Virus record (IMG/VR): IMGVR_UViG_3300014962_000017
Span: 1-27,591 of that record
Source: a virus
Strand: one strand, 5' to 3'
DNA: 27,591 nt
Both the position numbers and the translations under genes were made by a program. Shown here piece after piece: positions 1 through 25,548 of this stretch; position 1 is the first letter of the stretch; each line of letters begins with the position of its first letter. The notes under the pieces were generated by a model. It saw only the letters and a list, made by a program, of their open reading frames with translations, was not told the DNA's origin and did not search any database.

Positions 1-1
1 C

Positions 2-271
2 TACATCTCATCCGGCTTCGTGCCGCCGGAGTTCGCCTACATGGTCCCGCTTCAGGTCTACGAGCAGGACGAAACCGGCGCGTGGATCATGATCGCCAGC
101 GAACCCGGTGATCCGGTGGCTGTCTATCAGGCCGCTTCCGCTGCGGGCGTCACCACCACACAGGCCGCCGTCGATGCGCTCTTCGCCGCTGCCGATGTGA
201 CCGCGCAGGAGCCTTTCGTGGCTATGGGCCGCCTCGGCCTCTCAATCGTCAACCCCCCGATGGAGTTTTAA
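2..271 (+). CDS. C-terminal part of an unidentified virion-region protein (5' end outside window)
   Basis: The frame is open from base 2, with no start codon needed inside the window, so this is the 3' end of a longer gene. About 89 residues are visible, ending in NPPMEF. The stop overlaps the next start in a TAATG junction, which suggests translational coupling to the scaffold-like gene. I do not recognise the family. In phages of this type the slot before the scaffold is held by the portal gene or a small protein following it, so a head-assembly role is a guess from position only. Confidence 0.75.
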   Translation, partial: YISSGFVPPEFAYMVPLQVYEQDETGAWIMIASEPGDPVAVYQAASAAGVTTTQAAVDALFAAADVTAQEPFVAMGRLGLSIVNPPMEF

Positions 272-1363: not shown

Positions 1364-3565
1364 ATGGCTACTACCGATTTCCCGGTGAATAGCCCGCACG
1401 CCGTAAAGCTTTGGTCGAAGAAGATTGCGCGTGAGGCTCTCAAGGAGACGATGGCAAGCAAATTTCTTGGCACGTCTTCCAACAACCTCATCCAGGTCTT
1501 TGACGACACCAGCAAGGGCGCGGGCGACCGTATCCGTGTTCCTCTCCGTCTCCAGCTTTCTGGTCGCGGCGTGGGCGAAACCGAAGCACTTGAAGGCAAC
1601 GAAGAGAGCCTTTCGGTGTACTACGATGACTGCCTCATCAATGATATGGCCCATGCCGTCCGCATGAAGGTCACGATTGATGCGCAGCGCGTTCCGTTCT
1701 CCGTGCGTGAGGAAGCCCGTCTTGGTATCCAGGATTGGTACGCTGACCGCATTGACACGGCCATCGCCAACCAGCTTACCGGCTACACCGCTCAGTCGGA
1801 CACGCTCTACACCGGCAACAATGCCGCTGTTGCGCCGTCCTCTGGCACGGGTGCTGACCGCCGCTGGATCATCCGTCAGCAGGACGATGAAACGGACCAC
1901 ACTTCGGAAGCCTCGCTTTCGACCTCGGACACGTTCAGCCTCAAGCTGCTGGATCGTGCCGTGGCGATTGCGAAGACCTCCAATCCGCTCATCCGTCCCA
2001 TCAAGGTAGGCGCTCAGTCCTACTATGTGGCGTTCCTTCACCCCTATCAGGTGAAAGACCTCCGTACCTCCACCAACACAGGCGACTGGCTTGACATCCA
2101 GAAGGCCGCGATGGCTGGCGGTGATGTGATGGATAACCCGGTGTTCAGCGGTGCTTACACGATCCACTAGGGCACCCCGGCCAGTGATGGCCGTGCAAAA
2201 AACTCCGTGAATTGCTGGAACATCTTGTTGTAACGAGTAAACAATCTTGTTATAACAAGACAATCAGCAGCCAAGCGGAATCCTTATGAAAACATGCAGT
2301 AAATGCGGGTGTGAGAAGCCCGAGTCTGAATACTGGTTTAACAAGGCAAAGAACCGCTTCAACGCCATGTGTCGCACATGCCAAGCTGACCTTCGGGAAT
2401 CTTGGAAAACGCGGAACAAGGAGAAGGTTGCAGAGAAAAACCGCCAATGGGCACTGGCTAACCCTGACAGGGTGAAGGCAGCGCAAGAACGGTGGAAAGA
2501 ACGCAACCCAGGCATTGCAGCCAAGCGCATGAGAGAATGGCGTCTTGCCAATCTTGAACGGCACAAGGCAACAAATCGACGCAATGACCAGCGGATCAAG
2601 GATGAATGTTACAACGCATATGGCGGATATATTTGCGCCTGCTGCGGAGAAACACAGCCCAAATTCTTGTCTTTGGACCACATCAACAATGACGGCGCTG
2701 AACATCGCCGCCAAGTTGCTGGAATGAACGCTGGTGGCGGCAAGAAAATCTACAGTTGGCTCATTGCCAACAACTTCCCGCCGGGTTTTCAGATACTCTG
2801 CATGAATTGTAATTGGGGCAAGGCCAGAAACGGCGGTGTTTGCCCACATAAGGACTCCGAAGGTTCAACGACTAGCCGAAAGGCGTAGGATCAAGCGATC
2901 CGAAGCGCGGAGCCCCTGATCTCAGGGTGAAGATATAGTCTGATCTGCATGGTGACATGCAGCGGCCCGCAAGGGCGGTTCCGGGTGCGAACCGGAACGA
3001 ACAAACGCTAGGTGTGTATAACGGCGTGGTCCTCCATGAGTGGACGCGTCTTCCCAACGGCATCGGTGCCAACTCGGCCAACACCCGTCGCGCTGTCTTC
3101 TGCGGTGCGCAGGCGTGTTCGCTGGCTTGGGGACAGGGCTACTCCGAAGCGCCCAAGTATATCGAAGACTTAATTGATAGGTCCGTCGTCGGGGAACCGG
3201 CGAATGAAAACTGTGTGAACTCGGGGGAAGTCCTCGCCGCGTAAGCGGACGGAAAATCCCGAGCCAAGCCCCGCAGGGGGAAGGCGTAACGACTAGGGCA
3301 CAGGCCCGTAGGATCAAGTGATCCGAAGCGCACAGCACCCTGAACGGGTGATGATATAGTCTGCTCTGCATGGAAACATGCAGCGGTTGCTTTCACTGCC
3401 GAAGGCAACGGGTAGGGATTAACGAACCCTGCTGAACATCCGGTGTTCGATTACGACAGGCAGTTCGGTGTCTCCGTCCAGACCATCATGGGCGCGAAGA
3501 AGATGCAGTTCAACAGCAAGGACTTCGCCACCATCGTCATGTCAACCTACGCCGCAGCGCCGTAA
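1364..3565 (+). CDS. Major capsid protein (N4gp56-like), gene split by two group I introns
   Basis: The exons are 1364-2155, 3008-3170 and 3444-3565, joined as 1077 nt encoding 358 residues. Exon 1 ends on a codon boundary after Ala264. Exon 2 opens with CTA-GGT-GTG (LGVYNGVVLHE) and ends on the first base of a Leu codon, which exon 3 completes before FDYDRQFG. I recognise the sequence as the N4gp56-type capsid family from the N-terminal pattern and the conserved C-terminal blocks (GVYNGVVLHE, RRAVFCGAQA, FDYDRQFGV). Without splicing, translation would stop four codons into intron 1, giving a truncated 268-residue product, so splicing is needed for a complete capsid subunit. The ribosome-binding site is weak. 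The splice points are inferred from P1/P10 pairing and frame continuity. Confidence 0.88.
2156..3007 (+). ncRNA. Group I self-splicing intron 1 (ORF-containing) in the capsid gene
   Basis: The intron is 852 nt. P1 forms between exon end GGUGCU and the internal guide GGCACC (2171-2176), with the expected U-G wobble at the 5' splice site. Guide bases CUAG (2167-2170) pair with the first four bases of exon 2 as P10. Core elements are visible: P near 2210-2220; Q at 2262-2276 (AATCAGCAGCCAAGC); P4 as GCUG/CAGC; R at 2863-2874 and S at 2930-2941, giving P7 as GACUA/UAGUC; a P8 hairpin GGATC-AAGC-GATCC; and a P9 hairpin at 2945-2962 with a GTGA (GNRA) loop. The last base is G3007 (omega-G). The HNH gene lies between Q and R. 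Confidence 0.92.
2286..2888 (+). CDS. Intron-encoded HNH homing endonuclease
   Basis: The protein has 200 residues. An N-terminal zinc ribbon (C4, C7, C29, C32) is followed by about 70 residues of basic helix with repeated RxxNP/RxW-type units, probably for DNA contact. A C-terminal HNH nuclease domain shows CACC near 117-120, LDH at 130-132, and CMNCNWGKA near 172-180. Homing endonucleases of this kind cut intronless alleles and drive intron spread, so the expected target is the uninterrupted capsid gene around the 2155/3008 junction. The last codons overlap the intron's R element (P7), so protein and ribozyme sequence constrain each other. The ribosome-binding site is weak, as is common for intron ORFs. 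Confidence 0.9.
   Translation: MKTCSKCGCEKPESEYWFNKAKNRFNAMCRTCQADLRESWKTRNKEKVAEKNRQWALANPDRVKAAQERWKERNPGIAAKRMREWRLANLERHKATNRRNDQRIKDECYNAYGGYICACCGETQPKFLSLDHINNDGAEHRRQVAGMNAGGGKKIYSWLIANNFPPGFQILCMNCNWGKARNGGVCPHKDSEGSTTSRKA
3171..3443 (+). ncRNA. Group I intron 2 (ORF-less) in the capsid gene
   Basis: The intron is 273 nt. P1 is GACU^UA paired with UAGGUC, with the U-G wobble at the splice site (exon base T3170). P4 is CTCGGG/CCCGAG (3220-3225 with 3258-3263). Q is at 3255-3269 and ends GAGCCAAGC. R (3286-3295) and S (3351-3362) form P7 as GACTA/TAGTC. P8 is GGATC-AAGT-GATCC at 3311-3324. P9 is CTGCATG-GAAA-CATGCAG at 3366-3383, a GNRA loop. Ending at G3443 is the only nearby choice that restores the capsid frame. 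It carries no nuclease gene, and its 3' half closely resembles that of intron 1. Confidence 0.88.
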
Positions 3566-6855: not shown

Positions 6856-7034
6856 ACTGGCCGAAGCGTGGCGAGATCACCCAGCGGCTCCTTGACCAAT
6901 TGAAACCGAACTATAGCCGCGAACCTCAGAGCAAGCCCCAGGCATCACTGCCGTCCAGTGAATGCCCGAAGTGCGGGAAGCGCATTGGCCGGGGCCGTTA
7001 CATGCATATCAAGAACTGCAAGGGTGCAACATGA
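6852..7034 (+). CDS. Small zinc-finger-like protein
   Basis: The protein has 60 residues and is basic. The C-terminal half contains CPKCGKRIGRGRYMHIKNC, a Cys-x2-Cys...His-x3-Cys arrangement that could bind one zinc ion. It overlaps both neighbours by 4 bases (ATGA), so it belongs to the same translational chain. The function is unknown. Binding DNA or the packaged genome is possible but unsupported beyond charge and the putative finger. Confidence 0.7.
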   Translation: MNWPKRGEITQRLLDQLKPNYSREPQSKPQASLPSSECPKCGKRIGRGRYMHIKNCKGAT

Positions 7035-19051: not shown

Positions 19052-19514
19052 CGCTCACCTCCTGCGGCAGGGGGAGGATGATGTGGTTTGGAAGAAACGG
19101 CGGGCGGATCACAGACCCCTGCCATGCCTCAAGGCAGGCGGTGATAGCCGCCTTCATTGCGTCTTTTCTCCCAGCCATGAAGGCCCGCTTGAAAGCTGTT
19201 ACACCCGCCTCCACCGCCTCGTCAGGTATCTGGCAGGACGGATCATGTGCCACCTCATATGTCGCGGCGAAGATGTCAGGCTTGCAGGGGTAGAACTCCC
19301 CCGCCACGCCACAGATCAGCATGTCGTTGGCGTTCGCGTGCATCCTGCCTTCTTTAGTCAGGACAGAAGCGCCGTTGACCTCAAGCTTTATGACGCCAAT
19401 GGCGACCATTTCCGCGACAGGCGCAGGAAGGGGCCTGTTGAATGTTGATGCCGTAATCAGGTCATTGACGCACCACGCCTCTATGACAACGGGCTTCTTC
19501 CGATACTTCGCCAT
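19044..19514 (-). CDS. Conserved small phage protein starting MAKYRKKPVVIEA
   Basis: The protein has 156 residues. The N-terminus AKYRKKPVVIEAW and the later ICGVAGEFYPCKPDIFAATY are familiar from many phage and prophage proteins of unknown role that carry a small beta-rich domain. The second half is helical (FKRAFMAGRKDAMKAAITAC). I start at ATG 19514, which overlaps the previous stop as TGATG and follows GGGAGGG; a GTG one codon upstream also exists. An accessory function is likely. Confidence 0.75.
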   Translation of the reverse strand: MAKYRKKPVVIEAWCVNDLITASTFNRPLPAPVAEMVAIGVIKLEVNGASVLTKEGRMHANANDMLICGVAGEFYPCKPDIFAATYEVAHDPSCQIPDEAVEAGVTAFKRAFMAGRKDAMKAAITACLEAWQGSVIRPPFLPNHIILPLPQEVSDE

Positions 19515-19867
19515 CACAGGCCCTCCCCTTCCTCGCAGTCAATCGTGAGCTTCACACAGGCGATGCGTTTATGCACCGCCCCACGGTCAGCCGCTTCTTT
19601 TGTCCTGTAGAACAGTGTTTGAATATCTTCCGGATACACATTCACCCACACTTCGCGCTTGATGCGGGGCTTCACTTCGATGAGGTCACTATTTAGCGGA
19701 ACATTGTCTGTGCGATCCCATTTTCCATTGCTTAACCAACCCTCCGCAGTCCAGCCATCCTCATTGAGAACAGCGCCATGAATGCAATACGGCGCATTAC
19801 CATCCGTCGCATAGATGCGGACCTCACGGCCATCGCGGGTGCGGTAGGTCTTGGACTTGTCGATCAT
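19514..19867 (-). CDS. Hypothetical early protein
   Basis: The protein has 117 residues and a mixed alpha/beta pattern. It begins KTYRTRDGREVRIYATDG and contains GWTAEGWLSNGKWDR, which resembles a small beta-barrel-like accessory protein found in phage early regions. The C-terminal part includes VWVNVYPEDIQTLFYRTKEAAD. It overlaps its upstream neighbour by ATGA and its downstream neighbour by one base. No function is assigned. Confidence 0.68.
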   Translation of the reverse strand: MIDKSKTYRTRDGREVRIYATDGNAPYCIHGAVLNEDGWTAEGWLSNGKWDRTDNVPLNSDLIEVKPRIKREVWVNVYPEDIQTLFYRTKEAADRGAVHKRIACVKLTIDCEEGEGL

Positions 19868-20070
19868 GTGCGGCCCTCCTCCAGCGCGGATAACTTTAAC
19901 TTCAGCTTCTTCAGTTGCTTGTTCCGCGTCTCCAGAAGCCTCCGCGTTTTGAACAAGTCATTGGCAAACTCAAAGTTTCTGTTCTCCAACTCCTGCACGT
20001 AGTCCAATATGGCGCTTACTTCTTCCAAATCATCATGGTGATGAAGCCATTTCTCTAAGCGGTATTCCAT
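19864..20070 (-). CDS. Small coiled-coil early protein
   Basis: The protein has 68 residues from ATG 20070, which overlaps the upstream stop by one base and follows GAGGGGAAG. The upstream extension of the frame is rejected because it lies inside the next gene. The sequence is strongly helical with heptads (ILDYVQELENRNFEFANDL, LETRNKQLKKLKLKLSALE). It is likely a small dimerising protein. The function is unknown. Confidence 0.68.
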   Translation of the reverse strand: MEYRLEKWLHHHDDLEEVSAILDYVQELENRNFEFANDLFKTRRLLETRNKQLKKLKLKLSALEEGRT

Positions 20071-20459
20071 CACTTCCCCTCCAGCGCGGCGCGGGCGCGG
20101 CGACACGCTCCCACAGTGATCTTGCCGTCATACTCTGGGAAGCTTTCAACAAGCGGCTCGTCGTCGTGATGGTCAGGCCAGCAGTCAGCCTCCGCAGCAA
20201 ATGGCTCCAGTGCCGCCCGCAGGCGCTTATGCTTGTCAAGCAAGGCGTTGTATTTTTGCCCCCATCTGTTGCGCGACTTCACCAGCCGCTCAACTTCCTG
20301 AGACAAGGCTTTGCATTCGTGGCTGTCGGACATAACCGCAAGCCGTAAGTCCGCCCGCAGCCTCTCGATCTCATCGGCGGCTTCCTTCATTGTCGCTGAT
20401 GCCTCGACGCCGTAGCCAAATTCTGACCACTGACGCAGCCTCTCCACGATGTCAGTCAT
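20070..20459 (-). CDS. Ea22-like accessory protein, copy A
   Basis: The protein has 129 residues. The phrases MTDIVERLRQW, ADEIERLRADL and LRAALEPFA are hallmarks of the patchy, helical Ead/Ea22-type accessory proteins in lambdoid and many other temperate phages, whose role is unknown. A C-terminal GACRRARAALEGK closes the protein. It overlaps the next gene upstream by ATGA. It shares its N-terminal, central and LRAALE motifs with the gene at 20456-20860, suggesting duplication or shared modules. Confidence 0.72.
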   Translation of the reverse strand: MTDIVERLRQWSEFGYGVEASATMKEAADEIERLRADLRLAVMSDSHECKALSQEVERLVKSRNRWGQKYNALLDKHKRLRAALEPFAAEADCWPDHHDDEPLVESFPEYDGKITVGACRRARAALEGK

Positions 20460-20860
20460 TTGTATTCCCCTCCTCCCCCCGGCGCGGGATGGGCGAGGGC
20501 GGCGCTACCCTCGTACTGTACGGCGGTCAGGCCGCATGCACATCTATGCCCGCCTTCACAGCTACCTACATGGACGGCCCAGCGCTCCAGCCATGCTTCA
20601 GTGCTTTCCAGTGCCGCGCGCAGACGCATGTTCTCTGTGCGCGCGTCGGCCAGCGTGTTCAGCAGGCTGGCAATCTCGGCATCCTTCTGCGCCGCCTCCG
20701 CGCAATACTGCGTTGTGCCCTGATCCCTCGCGCAGCCGCCAGCCCGAAGGCGTTCAATCTCATCCGCACCGGCACGCACGTGCAGCACAAGGTGGCGCGG
20801 GGCATCGGCTGCTTCAAACAGGTCTGCAAGGCTGCGCAGGCGTTCCATTACATCGCTCAT
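20456..20860 (-). CDS. Ea22-like accessory protein, copy B
   Basis: The protein has 134 residues. It shares with its neighbour the opening MSDVMERLRSL, the phrase ADEIERLRAGG and the core NMRLRAALESTE. The C-terminal part has a Cys/His cluster (CEGGHRCACGL) that could bind metal. It overlaps both neighbours by 4 bases. This looks like a modular accessory protein of the early operon. The function is unknown. Confidence 0.72.
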   Translation of the reverse strand: MSDVMERLRSLADLFEAADAPRHLVLHVRAGADEIERLRAGGCARDQGTTQYCAEAAQKDAEIASLLNTLADARTENMRLRAALESTEAWLERWAVHVGSCEGGHRCACGLTAVQYEGSAALAHPAPGGGGEYK

Positions 20861-21162: not shown

Positions 21163-21428
21163 CTGCACCGATACCTTTTCTTCCCATTTTTGACGTACCA
21201 CACCGCCCGCTTTGTCCCGCACAAACGGGACGCCTTCTTGACCCTTGTAGGTTGCTGCGGTGCAACAGTGATGGCGTTTTGTTCCTGAGCCACTTTGTAG
21301 GGATTGGCGGTTGGCAGATAGACCACCTCCGCGCAGGGCACTTTTCCCACCACCGTACCACCGTCCACAGGGGTGATTGGCGAGATGCAGTAAGCCCCGA
21401 AGAAGAATATGACCTCCACCGGCTTCAT
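21159..21428 (-). CDS. Hypothetical protein with possible N-terminal export signal
   Basis: The protein has 89 residues. The first 16 residues (MKPVEVIFFFGAYCIS) are hydrophobic, and the C-terminus is very basic (YVKNGKKRYRCR). It overlaps the signal-peptide gene upstream by ATGA, so the pair may be translated together. The mid-region TVVGKVPCAEVVYLPTANPY is unremarkable. The function is unknown. Confidence 0.58.
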   Translation of the reverse strand: MKPVEVIFFFGAYCISPITPVDGGTVVGKVPCAEVVYLPTANPYKVAQEQNAITVAPQQPTRVKKASRLCGTKRAVWYVKNGKKRYRCR

Positions 21429-21781
21429 TGCTTTGGCACCGTCTGGTCAGGCGTCTCAGCCGGGTTAACGTCTGACACATCGGACGGGGCCGAGAGCTTG
21501 ACTGCTCGCATGGATGGTTTGGGCTTCGGCTTCGGGATGAAGTCCGGCAAAGCGTCCACGGGCGACAGGTCTACCTTCTCGGAAGCCTTCCCTGGCTGTT
21601 CGATGATCCAGACGTTTTGACCGGCGAGGGCAGGGATGGACAGGGTGAAAAAGGCCAGCGCCAACACCGCTGTTCTGCGCCCGGTTTTCGCCCAAGATTG
21701 CCCGCTTTTCACAGGGGCAAAACGGGAACAAAGCGCGAAGTTTGACGCGGTTAGTTTCATATTTATCAATAGGTTAGACAT
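21425..21781 (-). CDS. Predicted exported protein beside the attachment site
   Basis: The protein has 118 residues if it starts at ATG 21781, or 111 from ATG 21760; a GTG at 21712 is also possible, and none has a clear ribosome-binding site. A classical signal-peptide-like stretch (TGRRTAVLALAFFTLSIPALA) is followed by a small, Pro/Lys/Asp-rich mature part (PKPKPKPS). Farther upstream the frame crosses the tRNA-derived attachment core, giving the false VGGTGIEPVTPT peptide typical of att sites. It is the first gene of the block that would be separated from the early promoter on integration. One of two repeats interpreted as integrase arm sites lies inside it. Confidence 0.55.
   Translation of the reverse strand: MSNLLINMKLTASNFALCSRFAPVKSGQSWAKTGRRTAVLALAFFTLSIPALAGQNVWIIEQPGKASEKVDLSPVDALPDFIPKPKPKPSMRAVKLSAPSDVSDVNPAETPDQTVPKQ
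21690..21703. repeat. Left candidate integrase arm-binding site
   Basis: The 14-bp sequence GCCCAAGATTGCCC occurs here and again, perfectly, at 21873-21886. The two copies flank the attachment core and have the same orientation. Perfect repeats on both sides of a core are the pattern expected for arm-type sites bound by the integrase N-terminal domain. The assignment is inferred from geometry. Confidence 0.6.
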
Positions 21782-21790
21782 TGCTGCGAA

Positions 21791-21837
21791 CCTTGACATG
21801 GTAGGGGTCACAGGTTCGATCCCTGTACCACCCACCA
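21791..21837 (+). other. attP core: 3' half of a tRNA-Val(GAC) gene
   Basis: Reading +, the 47 bases run from the anticodon loop TTGACAT through GGTAG, a T-arm (ACAGG-TTCGATC-CCTGT), the acceptor strand ACCACCC, discriminator A and CCA. The GAC in the loop fits tRNA-Val. No 5' half follows the pattern upstream: there is no GGGTGGT partner and no D-arm, and bases left of 21791 do not complete the anticodon stem. It is therefore the tRNA-derived core used by tyrosine integrases, which rebuild the host tRNA on insertion. The integrase gene lies 52 bases away. Confidence 0.85.
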
Positions 21838-21872
21838 TTTATCAACGACTTAGCCATCCGTTCTCATTTCCT

Positions 21873-21886
21873 GCCCAAGATTGCCC
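21873..21886. repeat. Right candidate integrase arm-binding site
   Basis: This is the second perfect copy of GCCCAAGATTGCCC, 3 bases past the integrase stop codon and 35 bases right of the tRNA-derived core. See the left copy at 21690. Confidence 0.6.
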
Positions 21887-21889
21887 AAA

Positions 21890-22936
21890 CTATGCACGCC
21901 GGAACGCCTTTGCGCTGGCCTTCTGATACTCGGGCGAATGGTGCCCATAGACCGTCTCCAAGGTCTTCGTGGATGTGCTGGTGAGGCCTGACACATCCCA
22001 CAGGTCAACGCCCGCCCGAAGCAGCCAAGTGGTTGCCGAATGCTTCAAGACATGTGGCGTCACGCCATCCACTTTCGCGGCCTTTAGGACCGCTTCCCAG
22101 CCCCTTTGCTGCCGGGTGATGGGTTTCCCCTTGTACCTTACAACCGCCGTCTGCGGCCCTTGGGATAGGTCCAGACGCGCCCAGCGCCTGACATGGGCCA
22201 AGAGCCGATCCGGCATCCTAGCGGCGTTCCGGCGCTTCCGTGTTTGCCTCTCGGCCTTGCCCGCCCGGTAGATGATCCCGGCCTCGGCATCCAGCCATCC
22301 GGCATCATCCGACTCGTACCAGCGCAACTTGAGGATCGTGGCGTGGCGAGTGCCAGTATAAAGCCCCAGCAGGATAAACCGGGCAACGTAGGGCAGACGA
22401 AGCTTGCGGGCCGCATTCAGCAGCCGCGCTACCTCGTCCCGGGTCAGTACCCGATCCCGCCCCGGCCCCTCTTCTGGCTTCCAGACCTTCGGCACGGCGT
22501 CCAATGGGCTTTCTACATGCCAATGGTTTATGGCCGCCTGTAGGGTGCCAAGTTCCCGGCGCACGGTGGACGGAGACACTTTTTTTCCCCGCTCTTGCGC
22601 GTAGTCCCGGCAGAGCCGCCCGTTTACATCCCGCAGAGTCTTGAGGCCGAAAAACTCCAGAAGTGGCCCGCCGTGGTAGCACATGGGCGGCATGGGATTG
22701 GTCTTGAGATACAACGCGATTACGTCTGCGACACTAATTTGAGCGGGATTGCGGGCGCTGGTGTCGATGGTCTTGTGTTCCGCGAGGTATTCCCCGAACC
22801 TTTTTTCAGCCCCCGCGTAATCGCCAGGGCCGCAGCCAGTGTCGATTTCCGTTCGGCCATCGATAATGACCCATCTGGGTTCACGGCCTTCCCGCTGTCT
22901 GAGATAAAGCCTTGCCGGGAGCCTCTTGCGCGGCAT
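21890..22936 (-). CDS. int: Tyrosine recombinase (integrase)
   Basis: The protein has 348 residues from ATG 22936, which follows GGAGG by 5 bases; a GTG 4 codons upstream would place the ribosome site inside the gene. Residues 1-60 form a small N-terminal domain, about 65-150 a SAM-like core-binding domain, and 160-348 the catalytic domain. Catalytic positions are R197 in TGTRHATI, H295 in PHVLKHS, H332 in YGHHSPEY and the likely nucleophile Y337. The Arg of the usual HxxR box is Lys298. It catalyses integration at the adjacent tRNA-derived core. Its 5' region overlaps the excisionase gene by 217 bases. Confidence 0.92.
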   Translation of the reverse strand: MPRKRLPARLYLRQREGREPRWVIIDGRTEIDTGCGPGDYAGAEKRFGEYLAEHKTIDTSARNPAQISVADVIALYLKTNPMPPMCYHGGPLLEFFGLKTLRDVNGRLCRDYAQERGKKVSPSTVRRELGTLQAAINHWHVESPLDAVPKVWKPEEGPGRDRVLTRDEVARLLNAARKLRLPYVARFILLGLYTGTRHATILKLRWYESDDAGWLDAEAGIIYRAGKAERQTRKRRNAARMPDRLLAHVRRWARLDLSQGPQTAVVRYKGKPITRQQRGWEAVLKAAKVDGVTPHVLKHSATTWLLRAGVDLWDVSGLTSTSTKTLETVYGHHSPEYQKASAKAFRRA

Positions 22937-23106
22937 TTTGACCTCCACTCCCTTATGTCGTTAGCCGTCACGAAATACGCTCTGCCGATCTTTTCGCATC
23001 CCAAGTCGCCTTTGTGAATCGCGCTCAGGAGGTGGGATTTCGTCACCCCGCCGTCAGGAAAGAACCGGGCGAGGGCAATATCCAGCGGCATGGGGTTGTC
23101 TGCCAT
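22720..23106 (-). CDS. Excisionase-like helix-turn-helix protein overlapping int
   Basis: The protein has 128 residues. Residues 1-60 form a winged/MerR-like fold of the excisionase type: MPLDIALARFFPDGGVTKSH, then GCEKIGRAYFVTANDIREWR. The C-terminal half is Ser/Ala/Lys-rich and probably disordered (LSMAERKSTLAAALAITRG). It runs in another frame through the first 217 bases of the integrase gene. Similar tails, from memory, occur in related alphaproteobacterial prophages, so the overlap seems conserved. It likely binds near the attachment site and directs excision. The ATG overlaps the preceding stop as TGATG. Confidence 0.78.
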   Translation of the reverse strand: MADNPMPLDIALARFFPDGGVTKSHLLSAIHKGDLGCEKIGRAYFVTANDIREWRSKCRARGSRQGFISDSGKAVNPDGSLSMAERKSTLAAALAITRGLKKGSGNTSRNTRPSTPAPAIPLKLVSQT

Positions 23107-24847: not shown

Positions 24848-25548
24848 TCTGCGGCCTCAAGCTTGGTGTTCTGTTCAATGAACTTGATGTGCTGGGTGAT
24901 TTCGCCGTTGATGTATTCGCTCCAATCACCAAGCTTGCGAATGTCCAACAAGTTGTCGCGCTCCCATTGCGACACCTCACGAATGGTCTGGCACTTGAAC
25001 AGCGAGGCTTGCAGCGTCTTGTAGAGCGCGCGTGCTTCTTCCCGCTTCAGAAGCTGCTGGGGCTTTTCCTGCTGCTGTTCCTGTGGCTTGGGAGCTGTGT
25101 AGTCCTGAGGCTTGTAGGCATCCGCATCGGCACCGCCTTCAATCATGTCCCGATCACCCGTGGACACAAGGAACCGGCCTTTGAGGTATTCCTTGAGGGC
25201 ATAGGACTTTGCAGCACCGGAGGTTTGTGCGCCAGTGAGGGGCAGGGTGATGGTTGCCCGTTCGGGATCGTCTTCTGCACCGCCTTCATGGCGCAGTTTG
25301 AACTCATAGGTGATGCAAGCGTTCATCGTGACGCCGTTGCGGCCCTGTATGGGTTCCAGGCGATACGCAACCTCGTTCATGGACAGTGACAGGCCATGCT
25401 TTGCCATGAGCGGGCGAACGAGGTTCTTGAAGCTGTCAACGGACACGTAGTTGTATGAGCCGTGGCTGTTCTTTTCGTCCTTCTTGAGACTGTGAACTTC
25501 GTTCATCACGGCAGTCACGGCTTTGTGAAGTGCAGATTTGTCGGTCAT
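24844..25548 (-). CDS. erf: ERF-family single-strand annealing recombinase
   Basis: The protein has 234 residues from ATG 25548. Residues 1-150 carry the ERF core: HKAVTAVMNEVHSLKKDEKN, YNYVSVDSFKNLVRPLMAKH, then FKLRHEGG and a GAQTSGAAKSYALKEYLKGR block. Residues 165-185 form a Pro/Gln linker and the rest a C-terminal helical tail. ERF proteins anneal complementary single strands and help circularise the phage genome after infection. Its start overlaps the 21-codon micro-gene stop by ATGA. Neighbouring SSB-like and HNH genes suit a recombination module. Confidence 0.88.
   Translation of the reverse strand: MTDKSALHKAVTAVMNEVHSLKKDEKNSHGSYNYVSVDSFKNLVRPLMAKHGLSLSMNEVAYRLEPIQGRNGVTMNACITYEFKLRHEGGAEDDPERATITLPLTGAQTSGAAKSYALKEYLKGRFLVSTGDRDMIEGGADADAYKPQDYTAPKPQEQQQEKPQQLLKREEARALYKTLQASLFKCQTIREVSQWERDNLLDIRKLGDWSEYINGEITQHIKFIEQNTKLEAAE

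Follow-up and report, generated by a model that had tools for sequence, protein, structure and literature searches.

A tRNA gene fragment beside an integrase gene raises the question of whether it marks the attachment site of a temperate phage and, if so, how that site is built and which host gene it targets. Such a fragment lies in the window analysed here, a stretch of 27,591 bp that is part of a 39,039-bp (39 kb) virus record, IMGVR_UViG_3300014962_000017. The initial annotation had proposed an attP with a tRNA-Val core and two perfect 14-bp flanking repeats. Its claims held, but the description lacked a three-plus-two array of tandem units, two IHF-type sites, and covariation of the arm motif with the integrase N-terminus. 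As judged from the sequence, positions 21679-21892 very probably make up an entire attP, that of a temperate phage with tRNA-Val(GAC) of a Hyphomicrobiales-type alphaproteobacterium as its integration target.

The core and its host target

The 47-base attP core (CCTTGACATGG...CCACCCACCA; 21791-21837, plus strand) is an exact copy of the 3' part of tRNA-Val(GAC) of Hyphomicrobiales-type bacteria. Identity with the host tRNAs starts at 21790 (A), reaching back to ACCTTGA (48 bases), and spans ACCTTGACATGG through the CCA end. A scan of bacterial contigs with the last 41 bases of the core recovered 23 stretches. ARAGORN called 19 of them as complete tRNA-Val(GAC) genes, including one from Aestuariivirga litoralis (L017), which bears out the earlier reading of the core as the 3' half of this tRNA; the others are one cut-off copy and three remnants without the 5' half (L009, L020 and L023). 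At the locus itself, where the annotation expected no complete tRNA, ARAGORN calls none. A tRNA-Cys call at 24977-25054 falls inside the ERF gene and was taken as false.

Within the core, TTGACAT (21793-21799, plus strand) is the anticodon-loop segment between CC and GG, and forms the putative 7-bp overlap (crossover) region. Identity with the host on the left ends 2-3 bases before TTGACAT in all relatives. Strand exchange most likely occurs in this segment, with anticodon-stem half-sites flanking it, a placement drawn from tRNA geometry and from the general rule given in a passage of PMC8371274.

Five further phages (L023, L026, L027, L028 and L036) carry an identical core and an integrase about 77-80% identical to that of the window. 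One host MAG contig, CAMFKI010000020.1 (G005:C20), holds both expected junctions at tRNA-Val. The first comprises a complete tRNA-Val(GAC), two GCCC-type right units and an integrase 75% identical to that of the window; the second comprises three GCCC-type left units, an IHF-type site at -29 and a core remnant. The DNA after this remnant is about 68-75% identical to the DNA that follows tRNA-Val in three other genomes. The core is thus the 3' part of a tRNA and the prophage junctions lie at tRNA-Val(GAC), as for a tRNA-targeting integrase, and the proposed pairing of attP with a tRNA-Val(GAC) attB is upheld by these junctions and by the same core and arm positions in five phages. Within the contig (L056, 1-1400 versus 19311-20553) the order of the two junctions is the inverse of what a simple prophage would show, meaning that the contig is either a chimera or rearranged. 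Among the papers searched, none names both Aestuariivirga and prophage.

Next to more distant integrases, 38-49% identical, are either remnants resembling tRNA-Pro (assigned by eye) or complete genes for tRNA-Arg, tRNA-Pro or tRNA-Val. At several of these loci the side facing int has tandem repeats that differ in sequence. The layout is therefore family-wide, with the target and the arm motif varying.

Other occurrences of the core were also noted. A different phage contig, L038, has the same tRNA-Val core (6987-7031). It lacks an arm array, no integrase was recognised close to the core, and the longest repeat shared there is no longer than chance would give; this contig was not counted as a further relative. 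A pattern combining the core with TTTATCAA matched no other viral contig. In JAIUNJ010000003.1, a roughly 16-kb element has a complete tRNA-Val(GAC) on one side and, pointing the same way, a remnant of the core on the other (L011 and L020, at about 136.2 and 152.9 kb); that genome has no close relative of the window integrase.

Arm-type repeats

The 14-mer GCCCAAGATTGCCC occurs as two perfect copies on one strand, at 21690-21703 and 21873-21886, and has no third exact copy in the 39,039-bp record. The distances given in the annotation, 87 bases to the left and 35 to the right, are correct because the core occupies 21791-21837. Of 600 pairs of intervals placed at random in the window with matching geometry, none shares an exact 14-mer (mean 7.1, maximum 12). 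The interpretation of these repeats as arm-type stood, whereas the 14-mer as the unit did not: the real unit is about 10 bp, and the 14-mer is one 10-bp unit followed by the GCCC head of the next unit in a tandem array.

The P arm (21679-21709, plus strand) has three tandem arm-type units, GCCCGGTTTTC, GCCCAAGATT and GCCCGCTTTT, which start at 21679, 21690 and 21700 and thus repeat every 10-11 bp. The P' arm (21873-21892, plus strand) has two, GCCCAAGATT and GCCCAAACTA, starting at 21873 and 21883. This five-unit array scores 6.70 matches per 10, against a maximum of 5.30 in 1500 random placements, and in each of six phages the array beats all 1500. A chance origin of the 14-mers is rejected on these placements together with the 600 interval pairs.

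The left units lie at -114/-113, -103 and -93 from TTGACAT in the window, in its five relatives and at the prophage end L009. On the right, the units start 35 bases after the core in the window and at +37, +57, +57, +47 and +57 in L023, L026, L027, L028 and L036, respectively, shifts that are near one or two helical turns. In L026, L027 and L036 int ends hundreds of bases away and the right repeats are still near the core, which makes them a component of the attachment site rather than of int. Repeats of arm type are therefore found on both sides of the core (3+2 units), as in a lambda-type attP. Collectively, these data support the view that the GCCC-headed repeats are putative Int arm-type sites and part of a longer conserved array.

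A minus-strand reading frame (21425-21838) contains the left arm repeats. Where this frame seems to begin, its sequence (MVGGTGIEPVTPTMS) is that of the tRNA core in reverse, and the real start is probably further in.

IHF-type sites and a conserved stretch

The IHF consensus is WATCAANNNNTTR. Exact matches lie on either side of the core, on the plus strand, at 21764-21776 (TATCAATAGGTTA) and 21840-21852 (TATCAACGACTTA); only five exist in the 39-kb record. The left site is at exactly -29 in six of six phages, exact in five and with one mismatch in L023, and the prophage end L009 has a site at -29 as well. On the right, the window, L027 and L036 match the consensus exactly and L023 differs at one position; in L026 and L028 no such site can be recognised. 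IHF alpha is encoded, above the curated cut-off, in three related genomes, namely two hosts with an intact tRNA and one MAG holding L023. As in a lambda-type attP, the sites lie between arm and core, here as two exact consensus matches. The evidence supports the two sites as IHF-type elements of attP, with IHF binding predicted.

Between the P arm and the left IHF-type site is a conserved stretch, GGGAACAAAGCGCGAAGTTTGACG (21724-21747, plus strand), kept across five relatives. Lambda has Xis and Fis sites at the corresponding place, and one might guess, from the lambda layout, that this stretch is a candidate binding region for Xis or Fis.

Integrase and candidate excisionase

Beside the P' arm is the gene for a tyrosine integrase of 352 aa (21890-22948, minus strand), with matches to PF00589 (1.4e-11, above the cut-off) and to the integrase family phrog_1 (5e-34). 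The catalytic domain has the R, H and Tyr boxes of a tyrosine recombinase: an alignment of six relatives shows TGTRH, HxLKH and the VYGHH region, with K in Box II where many tyrosine recombinases have R. The N-terminal domain spans residues about 7-60. It is predicted to contain strands at 13-17, 25-30 and 33-36 and a helix at 44-57, a block with pLDDT of 72-88; outside this domain the model is poor (mean pLDDT 49). A separate N-terminal domain of three strands and a helix, as predicted here, is a mark of a heterobivalent, lambda-type integrase.

Overlapping the start of int is a gene for a candidate excisionase of 128 aa (22720-23106, minus strand). Its match to the excisionase model TIGR01764 is below the cut-off, the E values being weak both for the window protein (0.015) and for its prophage homologue (0.0037).

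Covariation of arm motif and integrase N-terminus

Within each phage the motif is uniform across all five units, but it differs between phages, as expected for sites that are read by one protein. The window, L036 and the prophage of L006/L009 have a GCCC-type motif, whilst L023, L026, L027 and L028 have a GGCC-type motif. The N-terminal 45 or so residues of the integrases group by arm motif: pairs that share a motif are 70-100% identical in this region and pairs that do not are 56-69% identical. Thus, the window integrase is 92% identical to that of L036 in the N-terminal part and 75% in the rest, whereas with that of L023 the values are 69% and 80%. The residues linked to the motif are REGREP, RESREP and RDGREP as against RPAG-P, RPAG-A and RGARGF, and in the predicted structure this difference would sit in the turn between the first two strands.

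These data suggest that the arm motif tracks the N-terminal domain of the integrase; the covariation is suggestive and not proof, because there are only seven phages, two of them nearly alike. It is possible, if rather doubtful, that N-terminal domain and arm motif are swapped jointly as a single module that sets specificity, regardless of the catalytic domain and the tRNA target, with the intasome geometry (arm and IHF positions, helical phase) fixed and the turn at about residues 19-24 (REGREP versus RPAG-P) reading GCCC or GGCC. Covariation of this kind between arm sequence and Int N-terminus has already been described for Cluster K mycobacteriophages, in passages of PMC3203893.

Gene order and status of the phage genome

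The annotation had also held that the sequence represents a free phage and not a prophage. The window encodes the major head protein, structural genes, a peptidase-like lysis gene and small genes, as well as the attachment region, int, an ERF annealing protein and a repressor-like gene. Rightward of the window, the record continues with a ParB/methyltransferase gene, the terminase large subunit and the portal. The core lies between int and the late or small phage genes, and lacks a 5' tRNA half. Moreover, one gene type of 137 aa is encoded in part at the end of the record and in part at its beginning, the two parts overlapping; in other phages its counterpart is a single frame of 136-138 aa. 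The record is therefore in effect a whole phage map opened inside this gene. The attachment region is interior to that map, as expected for a free phage, and gene order and record ends together argue against a prophage reading of the window, in agreement with the annotation.

At the DNA level, the two record ends (about 38,880-39,039 and window 1-154) are 81% identical over 154 bases; the record carries no end-repeat listing, though its ends resemble each other. Comparison of the DNA with 50,697 phage genomes brought up nothing beyond short unrelated matches, a number of which fall within the capsid gene's introns. The major head protein gene appears to be split by two group I introns (RF00028), at 2146-2962 and 3161-3383 of the window. 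The first scores 35 bits, short of the gathering score, and has an HNH-type reading frame at 2286-2888, assigned by eye; the second, with 72.7 bits, exceeds that score. A trial splice of these introns did not yield a single frame.

Alternative explanations

The core might be left over from a tRNA acquired long ago, or mark one end of a prophage (attL or attR), with no functional attP. The record is metagenomic viral and tRNA 3' remnants do occur at prophage ends (L009 and L020). Against this, matched repeats on both arms, both IHF-type sites and an intact int are found together, phage genes lie on both sides, and a record that includes terminase and portal has ends that overlap in one gene; a scar or prophage end is accordingly highly improbable. 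Equally hard to credit is the idea that the GCCC repeats serve some other purpose, as repressor operators, for instance, or as a terminator or transcription signal at the 3' end of int. It draws on the right copy abutting the int stop codon and on the left copy lying inside the possible frame at 21425-21838. It does not sit well with right repeats that stay by the core in L026, L027 and L036 despite the distant end of int, with left spacing fixed to the core and right spacing shifted in near-helical steps, or with a motif that tracks the Int N-terminus.

A narrower doubt leaves the attP intact and concerns the IHF-like sites, which could be there by chance or be bound by HU or another protein. 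The consensus is short, and the right site cannot be recognised in two relatives. Yet two of the five exact matches in 39 kb flank the core, the left site is at -29 in every relative and IHF alpha is encoded in three related genomes, such that this explanation is unlikely, though less remote than the other two. The locus is hence best regarded as a complete attP with arm-type and IHF-type sites.

Proposed mechanism

The anatomy of the site comes from sequence, whilst binding, bending, the positions of cleavage and the role of Xis are inferred. By analogy with lambda (PMC4880445), the N-terminal domain of Int would bind the ~10-bp repeats, and its core-binding and catalytic domains the anticodon-stem half-sites. 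IHF would bend each arm, allowing Int to bridge arm and core sites and to exchange strands within the 7-bp anticodon-loop segment of attP and the host attB. On the tRNA side, modelled on passages of PMC8371274, the phage core would restore the 3' part of the tRNA, leaving the host gene intact with int beside it, and the displaced 3' part would mark the opposite prophage end. Excision would involve the small DNA-binding protein encoded upstream of int, the candidate Xis.

Relation to known systems

The attP described here is an ordinary though complete example of a well-known design. With lambda attP and its Int-IHF-Xis system (eLife 2016, PMC4880445) it shares a tyrosine integrase of the heterobivalent kind, a total of five arm-type sites of ~10 bp distributed over the two arms, IHF-type sites placed between arm and core, and int beside the P' arm. 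Unlike lambda, it has three P and two P' units, its target is a tRNA anticodon region and not the gal-bio intergenic site, and one IHF-type site was found on the P arm in place of lambda's two.

The attP sites of Cluster K phages such as Pixie and CrimD (PLoS One 2011, PMC3203893), as presented in passages of that paper, likewise have a core from a tRNA or tmRNA gene (47 bp in Pixie) with several arm-type repeats flanking it left and right, and an arm sequence that varies with the Int N-terminal domain among close relatives. These are, in contrast, actinobacterial phages with another repeat sequence, and IHF sites are not described in those passages. For integrases that use the anticodon loop (Williams 2002, as cited in a passage of PMC8371274), the core similarly begins at the anticodon stem-loop and gives the tRNA back its 3' part; in the window the crossover is inferred from sequence.

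Significance

The locus provides a sequence-mapped attP/attB pair for phages of poorly studied Hyphomicrobiales, relatives of Aestuariivirga. The pair can be used to assign phage contigs to their hosts, and an integration vector could be developed from it. The most useful part of the finding is the covariation of arm motif and N-terminal domain: seven related att sites with two arm motifs make up a small natural data set on how the integrase N-terminus reads arm DNA.
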